Of a DNA stretch of 64,000 nt, positions 100 to 61,518 are shown one piece after another (positions within the stretch are counted from its first letter, which is position 1; each line of letters starts with the position of its first letter). The translations under genes were made by a program, and so were the position numbers. The notes beneath the pieces were generated by a model that worked only from the letters and a program-made list of their open reading frames with translations, had not been told where the DNA came from and ran no database searches. This DNA comes from Desulfovibrio cuneatus DSM 11391 (GTDB taxonomy: Bacteria > Desulfobacterota > Desulfovibrionia > Desulfovibrionales > Desulfovibrionaceae): NCBI RefSeq assembly GCF_000430005.1, contig NZ_KE387017.1:129715-193714 (forward strand). The letters are read 5' to 3'.

Positions 100-104
100 A
101 AGCT

Positions 105-129
105 GCAAACGGAATAAATCAGCGTTTCC
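105..129 (-). repeat. Half copy of family A foldback element next to znuA stop
   Basis: On the minus strand the znuA stop codon TAA (130-132) is followed directly by GGAAACGCTGATTTATTCCG, the end sequence of family A. Only this end is present; the sequence then passes into the family B copy. Confidence 0.7.
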
Positions 130-1405: not shown

Positions 1406-1530
1406 GAAAAAGTTGAGTTTTTTCGTTTGGCAAGGCGTGCTGCCAATTTGAAAGGGGGGCTGGACTCTTTGGTCCTGCCCCCCTGACAAATTGACGAACA
1501 ACGCCGCCAAACGGAATAATCCACTTTTTC
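1406..1530. repeat. Family A foldback element, 125 bp (A1)
   Basis: Imperfect palindrome with ends GAAAAAGT...ACTTTTTC, the conserved arm TTTTCGTTTGGCAAGGC / GCCGCCAAACGGAATAA, and a copy-specific inner stem (CAATTTG... / ...CAAATTG, then GGGGGGC-T-GGAC, loop, GGTCC-T-GCCCCCC). It lies between znuA and rpoC. No transposase is encoded. Confidence 0.85.
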
Positions 1531-30299: not shown

Positions 30300-30360
30300 T
30301 TTAGGGGGAAAGGGAGTGTGTGAGTATGTGCGGCGTGCCGCTGCGCCAGTCTGTTATTTC

Positions 30361-30681
30361 TTGTTTTGTTTGCCGCTCCGCTTGGGGTGGAAACACGAAG
30401 TTTTTTCGTTTGGCAAGGCTTAAGCCCCCAGCACCGTCATCCCCGCGCAGGCGGGGATCCAGTATTTTTAGTGGGTTAGGTGTTTTTTTGCGGCGCAAGC
30501 GTCACACCATTCCTCTATTCTTGTTTTGTTTGCCGCTCCGCTTGGGGTGGAAACACGAAGTTTTTTCGTTTGGCAAGGCTTAAGCCCCCAGCACCGTCAT
30601 CCCCGCGCAGGCGGGGATCCAGTATTTTTAGTGGGTTAGGTGTTTTTTTTGCGGCGCAAGCGCCACACCATTCCTCTTTTC
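30361..30681 (+). repeat. Tandem 160-bp repeat (family D), two units
   Basis: Units 30361-30520 and 30521-30681 are nearly identical; differences are a T-tract length change and two or three substitutions. Each holds TTTGCCGCTCCGCTTGGGG, the family A arm TTTTTTCGTTTGGCAAGGC, and the palindrome ATCCCCGCGCAGGCGGGGAT, a type of repeat seen in many bacterial genomes. A third unit begins at about 30692 but diverges. A related sequence lies at 57998-58138. Confidence 0.9.
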
Positions 30682-36390: not shown

Positions 36391-36418
36391 TGTGTTTGGT
36401 TTTGGGCGTGGCACGTTG
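36391..36418 (+). repeat. 28-bp dispersed repeat, copy 1
   Basis: An exact match to 53260-53287 (TGTGTTTGGTTTTGGGCG then TGGCACGTTG). In both places it leads into a hairpin. Confidence 0.85.
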
Positions 36419-36557
36419 GTAAAACTAGCCTTTTTCGCGCATGCGTCGTTGGCGGCGTATTTTACGGCGGGGCAGACCGTGAGGTCAGCCCCTTGAAAAA
36501 TTCGCCGCCGCCTTGCCTGCACAAAAAATTCTATCTTTTCACCAACGCCCCGCCCAA
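36402..36557. repeat. 156-bp foldback element (family C)
   Basis: Imperfect palindrome over its whole length: TTGGGCG...CGCCCAA outside, GTTGGT...ACCAAC, TTTTTCGCGCATGC...GCCTGCACAAAAAA, GGCGGCG...CGCCGCC, and a tip GGGGC-A-GACC GTGA GGTC-A-GCCCC. The bulged-stem tip has the same design as family A but a different sequence. No open frame. Confidence 0.85.
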
Positions 36558-36696: not shown

Positions 36697-36901
36697 CCTA
36701 AAGCCGACGGCAGTCGCGAGCGTAGCGAGCCGTGGAGTGAGGGCGGAGGGCGAAAGCGGCTAGGCCGCTGAAGCATCTCCACGAAGCCCGAACGGAGAAA
36801 GGGAGACGGCAGTCGCGAGCGTAGCGAGCTGTGGAGTGAGGGCGGAGGGCGAAAGCGGCTAGGCCGCTGAAGCATCTTCACGAAGCCCGAACGGAGAAAA
36901 G
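36697..36901 (+). repeat. Family B repeat, tandem pair (99-bp period)
   Basis: Units begin at 36706 and 36805. Each has GACGGCAGTCGCGAGCG..., CGTGGAG-type stem (GTGGAG in unit 2), hairpin AGCGGC TAG GCCGCT, and CATCTCCACG (CATCTTCACG in unit 2) AAGCCCGAACGGAG. It lies just upstream of the NAD(P)-binding protein gene. Between 36558 and 36696 I see nothing else. Confidence 0.85.
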
Positions 36902-38971: not shown

Positions 38972-39096
38972 GGAAATGCTTAGTTTTTCGTTTGGCAAGG
39001 CACGAGCTTTTTTTGAGGCGGGTGCTGGGCTCTTTGGCCCTGCCCCGCCGCAAAAAAAGCGAGTAAGGCCGCCAAACGGAATAACTTAGCGTTTCC
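38972..39096. repeat. Family A foldback element, 125 bp (A3)
   Basis: GGAAATGCTTAGTTTTTCG ... GCCAAACGGAATAACTTAGC then GTTTCC. Inner stem GCTTTTTTTG-GGCGGG / CCCCGCC-CAAAAAAAGC is specific to this copy; tip GGGC TCTTTG GCCC. Its right end runs into the last codons of the PHP hydrolase gene. Confidence 0.9.
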
Positions 39097-40234
39097 CTAC
39101 TTCCACCCATATGGGGTTGGTCACAGCATAGCGCCCCTTTGCGTCCTGCACCACCACGTTATACCACGTGTCTTTTGCCGGAGTTACTTCCAGGGCATAG
39201 GCCACGGGTTCTTTGGTGCCATTCAGTTCCTGGGTAGCTACTTCCTTGCCTTCTGAGAACACGGTGACTTTTTTCAGGCCGTTCACGGCTTGCAGTTCCA
39301 TGGTCAGGGGCAGGGCTTTGCCTGCGGCAACATGCTGGGTGCTGCCAAACATGCTTGTGGTTGCCGGGGTAATAATGGGCCCCATGGTGACATAGCTATG
39401 GCCTTCCTTCATGGCCTGCATGAATGCCTTGGCGTTCACCGGGCCTTCCACATGGGCATACAGGCGAATAATGCCGGGGTACAGGCCGGAAGTTACGTCA
39501 TGCTGGTCGGAACCGGAGCTCAGGTACACCTTTTTGCCCTTGTTCCAGTATTCCATGGCCGCGTCCAGGGCGCGCTTGTCCATGTTTTTGGGGTCTTCCA
39601 GCTTAATGGTGGACTGCAATTCCAGAAAGTCGAAGTCTTCGCTGCCAGCGTCAAACCCGCCCTTTACTCCGCTGCGGTTGTTCAGGAAGCCGTAGTCGGT
39701 GAAGGGGTGGTGCATCACCACCAGGGCGTTCTGGTCGTGCCCGGCCTTAATGATTTCTGCCGGGGTAAGGTTGGGGGAAATGGGCTTTTGGGAATAGTCC
39801 ACACCCAGAATGCCCCAGTGGCCCCAACCGGGGGAAACTTCCAGGTTGGAAAGGAAGGGCAGGCCGCCTTCTTTGGCAAAGCCCTGCATGGCGGCGTTGT
39901 TGGCAACCGAGTCGTGGTCGGAAATGGCGTGCAGGTTCAGGCCAGCGGCCAGTTGCGCCTTATACAGTTCCTTCACAGGGGAAGCGCCGTCGCCAATGTC
40001 GGAATGCTGGTGAATGTCGGCATTGTACCAGTTACGGCTGGCAGGGTTTATGAGGGTGGGAATAACCACGTTTTCCGTTAAGGTTTCACGCGGCTTGAGG
40101 CGCTTGGTAACCACCACAGGCAGGCTGGTAAAGTCGTGCCCGCGGGTTACGGTAAAGGTCACATCTGTTTCCGGCGCGGCAACATCAAAGGCCACGGTGC
40201 TGGTTTTTGGGTCTAAAAGAGAGCGGCCAAACAT
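39086..40234 (-). CDS. CehA/McbA family metallohydrolase (PHP domain)
   Basis: 382 residues. PHP metal-site motifs: YNADIHQHSDIGDG, AISDHDS, VSPGWGHWGILG, VMHHPF and SSGSDQHD. The N-terminal ~65 residues look like a beta-sandwich and the C-terminal ~90 like another. There is no signal peptide, although relatives are often exported, and the ATG has only AAGG two bases away. The frame stays open upstream to a TAG near 40320 without another ATG or GTG, so the N-terminus may be shortened or start at an unusual codon. The last codons (VGKR stop) are made from the end of the family A element. Substrate unknown. Confidence 0.78.
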   Translation of the reverse strand: MFGRSLLDPKTSTVAFDVAAPETDVTFTVTRGHDFTSLPVVVTKRLKPRETLTENVVIPTLINPASRNWYNADIHQHSDIGDGASPVKELYKAQLAAGLNLHAISDHDSVANNAAMQGFAKEGGLPFLSNLEVSPGWGHWGILGVDYSQKPISPNLTPAEIIKAGHDQNALVVMHHPFTDYGFLNNRSGVKGGFDAGSEDFDFLELQSTIKLEDPKNMDKRALDAAMEYWNKGKKVYLSSGSDQHDVTSGLYPGIIRLYAHVEGPVNAKAFMQAMKEGHSYVTMGPIITPATTSMFGSTQHVAAGKALPLTMELQAVNGLKKVTVFSEGKEVATQELNGTKEPVAYALEVTPAKDTWYNVVVQDAKGRYAVTNPIWVEVGKR

Positions 40235-41207: not shown

Positions 41208-41334
41208 GGAAACGCGCAGTTTTTTCGTTTGGCAAGGCGTGAGCTTTTTTGGGAAGGGCGGGTGGGTTCTTTGGCCCTGCCCCCTTCGTAAAAAAGCGAA
41301 ACAACGTAGCGAAACGTAAAAAATGCGCGTTTCC
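41208..41334. repeat. Family A foldback element, 127 bp (A4), inside the Ehr-like operon
   Basis: GGAAACGCGCAGTTTTTTCG ... AAATGCGCGTTTCC; inner stem GCTTTTTTGGGAAGGGCGGG / CCCCCTTCGTAAAAAAGC. Its end touches the stop codon (41335-41337) of the large subunit gene with zero spacing. Confidence 0.9.
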
Positions 41335-42855
41335 CTAAAGGTCGTGCCCGCAGTAAGACAAATTAAAACTCTTGTTACACAGGGGGAAGTCGGATATCTG
41401 CTGCCCGCGCAGGGCCATGGCAAGGCCTATCCAGTTATGGAAGGAAGGGTCCATTACCTTGTACCGGGCAAAGTTCCCCTGCGCACCTGTCATGGCAACG
41501 TGGCACACCTCGCCGCGCCAGCCTTCCACCAGGGCCACGGCAAGGGTGTGGGGGGCCAGGGGGGGCGTGTTACTGCACCCTGGCGTGGGGTGGGAATACA
41601 CTTCCCCTTCTGGCAGACTTTGCAGCATGCGGGTAATAAACGCCACAGACTCCTGAATTTCTTTGTGGCGCATGGTGGCTCTGGCAAAAACGTCACCTGC
41701 TTGCAGGGTGTGGGTGTGCAGGTCGTGCCCGCGCATGCCCGGCAAGGGGTGGGTGGAGCGTGCGTCGCACGGTAAGCCGCTGGCCCTGGCAGCAGGCCCC
41801 ACAAGGCCCAGGTCGCGGGCTGCTTTTTCCGGCACAGTGCCAATACCCATCATGCGGCTGAGCACTGAACCTGTGCGCCACATAAGGTTGGCAGCACCTT
41901 CCACATCTTTGGCAGCCAGGTGCAGGCGCTCCACCATGGTGCGGCACAGGGCGGCGTCTGCTGCCACTGCCGTGCCGCCGGGGCAGACAAGGTTGCGCCC
42001 AAAGCGGTTGCCGCAGAGCAGCGCCGTAATGTTCAAAAAGTCGCCGCGCAGCCTGCCGCAGAAGGCAGATGTGGGCAGGTAGCCAATGTCCCCGGCCAGT
42101 GCGCCCAGGTCGCCTGTGTGGTTGGCAAGGCGTTCCAGTTCCAGGGCCACAGCCCGCAAGGCCTGCCCGCGCGGGGCCACAGGCAGGTGGGCCAGGGCTT
42201 CAATAATGGTACTATAAGCCCAGCTATGGCCAATGGTGGTGTCGCCTGCCAGTGTTTCCATAAAGGGCAGGGTGCGCTTGGTTGGGCCGCCTTGCAGGGC
42301 CTTTTCAATGCCCCGGTGGTGGTAGCCCAGGGAAATTTCCAGGTGCATTACCACTTCACCCTGGCACTGAAAGCGAAAATGCCCGCATTCAATAATGCCC
42401 GCATGAATGGGGCCAACAGCCACCTCATGCACGTCCTCGCCCGTAACGGTGAAAAAGTCGGCTATGCCAATGGCGGGGCCGTGGGGCGTGGCCGGAAAGC
42501 GCACGGGCTTGAGCCACGGGTGCCCTGTGGGTTCAATACCTGTTTCTTCATAGAGTTCACGCTCAAACAGGTGCAGGGCTGGCATGGCGGGGGTAAATGC
42601 CGGGTATGCTTGCGGGGCCGGGGTGGCTGCCACGGCAAGGGAATTTTCTGCATCACGGGCCAGCACGGCATAGAGCATGCGCGAGGTGCGGTTGTTCTGG
42701 GAATCATTTTCCTGCGGGCCAGCAAAGAACGCACACACACGGGCCCTGTTGTGCAATTCATCCGTAAGCCATTGGGAAAACTCGCCTATGCCAAGGCTAG
42801 GAATGGAGTGCACGGGAACGCTGGTGCCGTTCATAAGGGTGATGTGGTTTGCCAT
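41335..42855 (-). CDS. NiFe-hydrogenase-like large subunit lacking the Ni-Fe cysteines (EhrL-like)
   Basis: 506 residues, NuoC-NuoD type fusion like HycE/HyfG. N-terminal NuoC-like part (about 1-120); then VGPIHAGIIECGHFRF and LGYHHRGIEKALQGG, diagnostic of the NuoD/HycE family. Where hydrogenases have CGxC (after the RGIEK block) this protein has METLAGDT (199-206), and where they have DPCxxC it has PLCNKSFNLSYC (491-502). So the four Ni ligands are not kept, and hydrogenase activity is unlikely. This matches the energy-converting-hydrogenase-related (Ehr) group. Ten bases after the NuoN-like gene. Confidence 0.9.
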   Translation of the reverse strand: MANHITLMNGTSVPVHSIPSLGIGEFSQWLTDELHNRARVCAFFAGPQENDSQNNRTSRMLYAVLARDAENSLAVAATPAPQAYPAFTPAMPALHLFERELYEETGIEPTGHPWLKPVRFPATPHGPAIGIADFFTVTGEDVHEVAVGPIHAGIIECGHFRFQCQGEVVMHLEISLGYHHRGIEKALQGGPTKRTLPFMETLAGDTTIGHSWAYSTIIEALAHLPVAPRGQALRAVALELERLANHTGDLGALAGDIGYLPTSAFCGRLRGDFLNITALLCGNRFGRNLVCPGGTAVAADAALCRTMVERLHLAAKDVEGAANLMWRTGSVLSRMMGIGTVPEKAARDLGLVGPAARASGLPCDARSTHPLPGMRGHDLHTHTLQAGDVFARATMRHKEIQESVAFITRMLQSLPEGEVYSHPTPGCSNTPPLAPHTLAVALVEGWRGEVCHVAMTGAQGNFARYKVMDPSFHNWIGLAMALRGQQISDFPLCNKSFNLSYCGHDL

Positions 42856-53287: not shown

Positions 53288-53322
53288 ATACCACTCGGTA
53301 TCACTGAGTAAATGGTATTTTG

Positions 53323-53447
53323 GGAATGCTCAGTTATTTCGTTTGGCAAGGCACGAGCTTTTTTTGAAACAGGAGTGGACTCTTCCGTCCTCGACTGTTT
53401 CAAAAAAAGTGAAGTAACGCCGCCAAACGAAATAAATCAGCGTTTCC
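53323..53447. repeat. Family A foldback element, 125 bp (A5), between aroC and aroDE
   Basis: GGAATGCTCAGTTATTTCG ... GCCAAACGAAATAAATCAGC then GTTTCC. Copy-specific inner stem TTTTTTTGAAACAG / CTGTTTCAAAAAAA, tip GGAC TCTTCC GTCC. The aroDE ribosome site (GAGGGGGAAG) starts three bases after it. Confidence 0.9.
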
Positions 53448-53460
53448 TGAGGGGGAAGTA

Positions 53461-57942: not shown

Positions 57943-57997
57943 GGGGGAAGGGGTTGTCGCGGAGTTTGATGGAAGAGGTGGTGGTGCGTAGGTTTTT

Positions 57998-58138
57998 GCG
58001 GCGTGCCGCCGCCTCAGCCTGTTGATTTTTGTTTTGTTTGCCGCTCCGCTTGGGTTAGGGGGCCCCTTGTGCGGCCCCCTGACCCAAGCGGAGCGGATAA
58101 ATAATGAAAAACCACAAGCGTCTGCGGCGGCACGCCGC
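57998..58138. repeat. Nested foldback repeat related to family D
   Basis: Outer arms GCGGCGTGCCGCCGC / GCGGCGGCACGCCGC and inner arms CCGCTCCGCTTGGG...GGGGGCC / GGCCCCC...CCCAAGCGGAGCGG. TTTTGTTTGCCGCTCCGCTT is shared with the tandem repeat at 30361-30681. A further arm (58144-58160) repeats the same word. The gap 57943-58318 has no gene. Confidence 0.8.
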
Positions 58139-61260: not shown

Positions 61261-61294
61261 AAGGCTTCCTTCAATAATAAAACGGTGAAACAAG

Positions 61295-61518
61295 GGAAAT
61301 GCTGATTTATTCCGTTTGGCGGCGTTGCTTCACTTTTTCTGAAACAGTCGAGGACAGAAGAGTTGACTCGGCCCGTCCTGGGCCTCGGCCTTCGGCTCCC
61401 GCCCTTCGGGCGGTTTCCAATTCCGCTTTCATGCGGAATTGTCACTCCTGCTTCAAAAAAAGCTTGCGCACAGGGCCTGTGTCCCCGACCTTGCCAAACG
61501 AAATAACTGCGCGTTTCC
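61295..61518. repeat. Enlarged family A element, 224 bp (A6)
   Basis: Ends GGAAATGCTGATTTATTCCG ... TTGCCAAACGAAATAACTGC then GCGTTTCC. The centre carries extra hairpins: GGCCTCGGCCTTCGG region, CCCGCCCTTCGGGCGG and AATTCCGC...GCGGAATT. Another family end (AATCAGTGTTTCC) follows at 61531-61543. It separates DUF1850 from the TRAP permease gene. Confidence 0.85.

Follow-up and report, generated by a model that had tools for sequence, protein, structure and literature searches.

Why should short, dispersed hairpins change the sequence of their inner stems and yet keep them paired? The question arose in a 64,000-nucleotide stretch of the Desulfovibrio cuneatus DSM 11391 genome (here, the window), where the original prediction described four foldback copies of fixed size, with conserved ends and outer arms and with middles that differ but remain self-complementary. 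All four were recovered where they had been placed, at 1406, 38972, 41208, and 53323, by a covariance model (R1) built from 32 copies, the four window copies among them. Scanning the window with filters off gave boundaries of 1406-1532, 38972-39097, 41208-41335, and 53322-53448, with scores of 109.9 to 139.6 bits, and returned weaker matches besides. The features that we refer to below are these.

38972-39096, plus strand: hairpin part of the copy under study, of the subfamily with the GAGGCGGG / CCCCGCCGC inner stem
39086-40234, minus strand: gene whose stop codon lies within the right end of the copy at 38972-39096
1406-1530, plus strand: hairpin copy with an AATTTG / CAAATT inner stem; termini changed but paired
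41208-41334, plus strand: hairpin copy, inner stem GGGAAGGGCGGG, directly adjoining the native stop codon of gene 41335-42855
41335-42855, minus strand: gene with a Complex1_49kDa domain; the target site of copy 41208 contains its stop codon (41335-41337)
53323-53447, plus strand: hairpin copy with a GAAACAG / CTGTTTC inner stem
53297-53321, plus strand: left piece of the copy at 53323-53447, GGTATCACTGAGTAAATGGTATTTT, containing a degenerate left inverted repeat
61294-61518, minus strand: long form, carrying an additional structured tip (~78 nt) and, in the outer arm, another insert
1559-1625 (end approximate), plus strand: 5' fragment of a copy
about 104-129, plus strand: 3' end fragment of a copy, adjoining another repeat

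Folding of the four copies against 200 dinucleotide-preserving shuffles gave z values of -7.2 to -10.8 on the plus strand and -5.7 to -9.7 on the minus strand. Their inner stems do differ in sequence while retaining pairing, and the TCTTNN tip is found in all four, as had been claimed. A search of the window against Rfam 15 returned only five tRNAs above the gathering score, and the element matches no known structured RNA family there.

The element is abundant in its own genome (G000, a 3.36-Mb draft in 76 contigs, 96% complete). From 3,679 first-look candidates, 150 were scored and every one matched the model, so that the genome holds at least 150 matches; 146 of them are 123 to 131 bp long, two are 204 to 205 bp, and two are short, which puts full-length copies at no fewer than 146. 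Contrary to the original prediction, size is constrained but not fixed, as there are also forms of 204 to 225 bp that have an additional structured tip. Simple motif searches agree: a 13-mer from the 3' end, with at most one mismatch, has 304 matches in this genome (3 for the reversed control), and a 13-mer from the 5' arm has 292 (11 for its control). Visual inspection of 20 stretches classed 7 of their 27 3'-end matches as 3' fragments; of 20 unpaired 5' motifs, 2 or 3 are 5' fragments. With fragments of both kinds present, there is no firm polarity.

Outside this genome the family is patchy. It was present in 4 of 40 relatives searched at the DNA level, and R1 gave at least one match in 7 of the 15 genomes of the genus, counting opposite-strand matches to a single copy. 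Many copies were found only in G000 and in three of the 14 other genomes of the genus (G004, G009, and G011, of which G009 and G011 are drafts, 65% and 82% complete). At 79 places in these three genomes, a few of them counted twice, the architecture and fold are shared and the stem sequences are their own.

The termini needed revision. In many copies the left end of the original prediction is not the end of the element, and GGAAACGCTGATTTATTCCG, contrary to the earlier reading, is the usual right end in reverse complement; copy 1406, moreover, has different termini that are nevertheless paired (GAAAAAGT / ACTTTTTC). An extra left piece of ~25 nt, resembling GGAARCRCTGATTAAATGGCATTT, lies upstream of the hairpin in 64 to 69 of 146 copies, depending on which of two criteria is used. 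Its consensus, TTAGGGAAGCACTGATTAAATGGCATTTT, opens with an inverted repeat of the right end; the piece is also present in G004 and G011, and a longer version is present in G009. The terminal inverted repeats are GGAARCRCTGATT ... AATCAGCGTTTCC, the left one being degenerate or unrecognized in about half of the copies. The complete element would then be about 152 bp, a ~25-nt left piece starting with GGAARCRCTGATT followed by a 127-nt hairpin ending 3' in AATCAGCGTTTCC. At the left end of the element (53297-53321 in the window), the left inverted repeat is a rival of the hairpin's 5' arm for pairing with one 3' end, which resembles a strand-exchange switch.

With the ends set at GGAA... and ...GTTTCC, 38 of the 150 copies in G000 and 42 of the 79 in other genomes had recognizable ends. 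Flanking 4-mers were identical in 12 of the 38 (permutation mean, 2.4; maximum, 9) and in 25 of the 42 from other species (mean, 6.8; maximum, 14; 1000 permutations each), and identical 5-mers were absent from both sets. The target duplication is therefore exactly 4 bp, with the consensus YTAR (CTAG, TTAA, TTAG, CTAA, and variants). Among the window copies no intact duplication was seen; copy 53322, the only one of them in the test, gives ACTC versus TGAG. At the hairpin boundaries, the right one of which is off by one base, no duplication of 4 nt or more exceeded chance at P 0.05, save for a marginal excess of 5-mers in the ext set (4 of 64 identical; permutation mean, 1.4; P 0.047). The suggestion of a MITE-like element is thus borne out once the ends are corrected: it is short, dispersed in many copies, and free of a transposase gene, with terminal inverted repeats and a duplication of fixed length.

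Long hairpins in bacterial MITEs are usually read as a by-product of inverted repeats. Hundreds of related copies in four species permit a direct, tree-aware test of whether the fold itself is conserved, and a search of open-licence texts on covariation or compensatory change in bacterial MITEs found nothing on this family or this test. In an alignment of 150 copies, standard pairs fill 94.2% of pair cells, against 45.5 to 56.8% when partners are slid; this alignment was fitted to the covariance model and hence favors pairing. In the same alignment 28 of 40 pairs show changes on both sides (11 to 16 when slid), and 424 cells are changed on both sides, versus 105 after shuffling and 29 to 117 after sliding. 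A tree of 146 copies, the long forms dropped, placed 132 double-change events on branches at the model pairs, where 12.1 are expected under independence and 17 to 31 with slid partners. The excess persisted with a tree built from columns that never see both partners (165 double changes; 14.6 expected, 23 to 33 slid) and with one built from unpaired columns (224; 26.7 expected, 31 to 42 slid). Compensatory change beyond chance, as the original prediction proposed, is supported by these counts. A stricter G-test, with a null simulated along the tree, left only 2 of the 40 pairs at E < 0.05, though no column pair among the remaining 7,341 passed, and 22 model pairs stand within the top 77 of all 7,381. 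We take covariation as shown for the hairpin; individual pairs are mostly not significant alone. The fold is retained far beyond chance, out to the termini, while the sequence turns over.

How pairing is kept can be approached from the distribution of the double changes. The nine closest copy pairs, with 0 to 3 differences, have no double changes; doubles per copy pair climb from 0 to 9.0 with divergence, and singles plateau near 5 (the pairs are not independent of one another). Because doubles grow with divergence and are lacking in the nearest copies, pairing is probably kept along propagating lineages and not rebuilt at each move, which speaks against the earlier idea of a hairpin regenerated with every transposition. 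Rare private single changes (21 to G.T, 22 to A.C, and 28 to mismatches) look like unconstrained decay. The scaling of singles and doubles is consistent with a fold that is preserved in multiplying lineages, and with copies that decay afterwards.

Slow copying from arm to arm fits that scaling too. Template switching within a folded strand, as in quasipalindrome correction, could homogenize the arms with no selection on structure; this is a weaker form of the foldback idea, and we regard it as possible, if rather unlikely. It would explain why doubles are frequent relative to singles, terminal branches included (94 of the 132, 79 of these from one Watson-Crick pair to another). Changes from Watson-Crick to Watson-Crick make up 111 of the 132 doubles, and beside 70 transitions they include 41 transversions, which need no wobble step. 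Whole blocks of terminal or inner stem, moreover, have been replaced in single copies, such as L064:3913-4040 and window copy 1406. The share of doubles is similar on terminal and internal branches, which does not favor maintenance along lineages and is not predicted by selection on mobility alone. Arm-to-arm copying is opposed, on the other hand, by the nine closest pairs, and it does not predict an excess of G.T over A.C.

That excess is seen over all branches, where Watson-Crick pairs changed to G.T 84 times and to A.C 41 times, compared with 135 and 154 in an unpaired-column control (P 1.6e-4); tallied per column, the counts are 18 and 7 (P 0.04). The bias toward G.T wobble pairs points to one strand as the one that probably folds, whether as single-stranded DNA or as RNA: the strand whose 5' half reads GGCAAGGC. 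Among the rare private changes the strand bias is absent. One may speculate, tentatively and with low confidence, that the element is a MITE of the cut-and-paste type that needs one of its strands folded in order to move, with the hairpin serving as a substrate or being rebuilt by hairpin-templated copying during transposition. Such a MITE would join features of IS5-type (a 4-bp duplication) and single-strand transposition, and its hairpin would be held by structure rather than by sequence, out to its termini.

The position of the copies relative to genes is equally distinctive. Gene calls came from a script trained on the window rather than from curated annotation. None of the 150 copies lies within a called gene. 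In G000 the right-hand gene runs toward the element at 102 copies; at 85 of these its stop codon is positioned between -12 and +9 relative to the right end, and at 42 it is inside the target site. On the left, where 57 genes point at the element, 13 of them terminate at one or other of the two possible left ends. In the other three genomes the right boundary coincides with the end of a frame open for 40 codons or more in 14 of 21, 15 of 20, and 10 of 16 copies (control, 17.8% of 4,000 positions drawn at random from the window), and open frames end near the left side in 14 of 21, 16 of 20, and 12 of 16; since the left range was twice as wide and had no matched control, one-sidedness is demonstrated for G000 only.

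Twelve homologous loci of the gene at 41335-42855 (L139 to L150), from named relatives that are Desulfovibrio-like MAGs, were fetched; in all 10 examined the gene stops at the identical codon, so the stop is native, and none of the 12 has a model match, which together provide an empty site for copy 41208. A TAA or TAG stop that follows a pyrimidine is itself a YTAR site, and duplication leaves the stop intact, so target choice combined with harm to genes would explain most of the placement. It does not account for the orientation of the element between tandem gene pairs, 64 to 29 (P 3.7e-4). This bias and the strong seating after stop codons would both be expected if a host function kept every copy paired, for instance as a 3' hairpin protecting or terminating the transcript of the preceding gene. 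We consider such a function improbable: private singles show no wobble bias on either strand (21 to 22) and include 28 outright mismatches, the strand that wobble pairs favor lies antisense to the gene abutted by most copies, and the YTAR target with harm to genes predicts the placement as well. Seating directly after stops indicates how such an element reaches high density without breaking genes.

A mobilizing enzyme was sought by protein domain. IS5_3 had no match in G000 (a draft in 76 contigs); DDE_Tnp_1 had none there and, elsewhere, none in 13 of 15 genomes of the genus. No transposase with the inverted repeats of the element was found in G000 or at the IS5-family copies of G004 and G011. 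Two IS5_3 copies (L283 and L285) were rejected as the mobilizer, as they have different inverted repeats of their own and the element-like end belongs to a neighboring copy. Five DDE_Tnp_1 loci (L286, L289, L292, L298, and L301), which were scanned only, have a similar end nearby, and an IS5-family copy in G011 is flanked by TTAG on both sides. L165 and L168, in each of which inverted 3' ends enclose a long stretch, were discarded as autonomous elements since they contain ordinary genes. Only the target suggests that the element belongs to the IS5 group, and because no IS5-family element with matching inverted repeats was found, we do not file the element as a proven IS5 derivative.

Transposition through a single strand, of the REPIN/RAYT type or by another HUH (Y1) enzyme, would suit a long foldback with a strand-specific wobble bias and many intergenic copies, and Y1_Tnp is present in G000. 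The copies there, however, belong to a separate IS200-type element with other ends, contrary to the RAYT-like mobilization first envisaged, and no Y1 match was found in two carriers of the family, G009 and G011, drafts of 65% and 82% completeness. The 4-bp duplication also weighs against it; Y1 elements are not known to produce one. This route is accordingly very unlikely. The IS200-type element (L235, L241, L246, L248, L249, and L250) is multicopy and breaks the G000 assembly at the ends of C15, C44, C20, C51, and C13; its copy at L250 adjoins or sits in a copy of the hairpin element. Least probable of all is a retroelement inserting its 3' end at stop codons by target-primed reverse transcription. 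The right end does abut stops, and 3' fragments lacking the 5' part do occur, but RVT_1 had no match in the four genomes with many copies, 5' fragments occur as well, and there is a 4-bp duplication; we dropped the idea on these grounds.

The reading that we prefer, and think reasonably probable as a whole, is that of a ~152-bp nonautonomous MITE that inserts at YTAR, is moved in trans, sits at gene ends, and keeps its hairpin along lineages. The enzyme that moved it in trans would most likely be an IS5-type transposase or a different one that likewise duplicates YTAR, with each insertion duplicating exactly 4 bp, as the flank statistics indicate. Insertions would survive mainly at targets at gene ends, above all at YTAR sites holding a TAA or TAG stop, where they are in fact found, presumably because the duplication keeps the gene intact. 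Judging from the scaling with divergence, pairing would be maintained in lineages that are still multiplying, and single copies would gain unpaired changes after insertion; the folded form would be the strand with GGCAAGGC in its 5' half, single-stranded DNA or RNA, going by the wobble pairs. Why bacterial MITEs keep hairpins becomes a testable question, with mobility, arm homogenization, or host tolerance as the possible answers.

Several other repeats accompany the element. Its long form (L065, L095, L070:162-366, L073:15-218, L152, L155, L158, and window 61294-61518) has a common tip of ~78 nt with hairpins exposing AGGA loops, placed at one insertion point in two different stem subfamilies. 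Another structured repeat, starting with CCTAAAGCCGACGGCAGTCGCGAGCGTAGCGAGCCGTGGAG, is often inserted within copies of the element in either orientation (window 36706-36899, about 1-95, and 1687-1714; L153, L154, L157, L161, L170, and L258 to L262). Further hairpin families with quite different helices have the same letters in the internal loop, 5' side GCAAGGC and 3' side AACG(C) (window 36418-36540, minus strand; L111:1296-1419; L120:1902-2027; L061:517-642; L040:1642-1767); they may form a superfamily. An exact 132-nt direct repeat with a spacing of 160 (window 30358-30489 and 30518-30649) belongs to a GC-rich hairpin family (TTTGCCGCTCCGCTTGGG), listed with 57984-58054, that hosts insertions of the element in L050 and L128.

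Among known systems, REP and REPIN sequences with RAYT resemble the element in being palindromic, intergenic, and numerous. The element differs in its much longer single hairpin, its 4-bp duplication, and the lack of a linked Y1 gene, a linked Y1 gene without duplication being the mark of REPIN/RAYT. A YTAR duplication is reported for IS5 (PMC10359306), and IS5-type insertion sequences and the MITEs derived from them share it with the element, which differs in having no transposase gene, in an interior that is one long hairpin, and in that no IS5 copy with its inverted repeats was found. Closer in form is ERIC, whose sequence we take to be different from that of the element, and against which the element is set apart by species-specific stems with tested covariation. 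According to PMC2229807, ERIC (also IRU or RU-1) of enterobacteria is a 127-bp imperfect palindrome with many intergenic copies, thought to be a MITE, whose transcripts fold into a long stem; it is like the element in length (~127 bp), long palindrome, intergenic location, and high copy number, and it has TA listed at its termini in place of a 4-bp YTAR duplication. QMITE1 and QMITE2 of Coxiella are, in the sections of their description that we draw on (PMC5896051), long palindromic MITEs with a very stable predicted RNA fold, one QMITE2 copy being located at the 3' end of a gene; they have other sequences and duplications of 2 to 4 and 7 to 9 bp, and those sections contain neither a term for covariation nor the word "compensatory." Its duplication, inverted repeats, and size make the element a bacterial MITE, one whose closest counterparts in kind are ERIC and the QMITEs.
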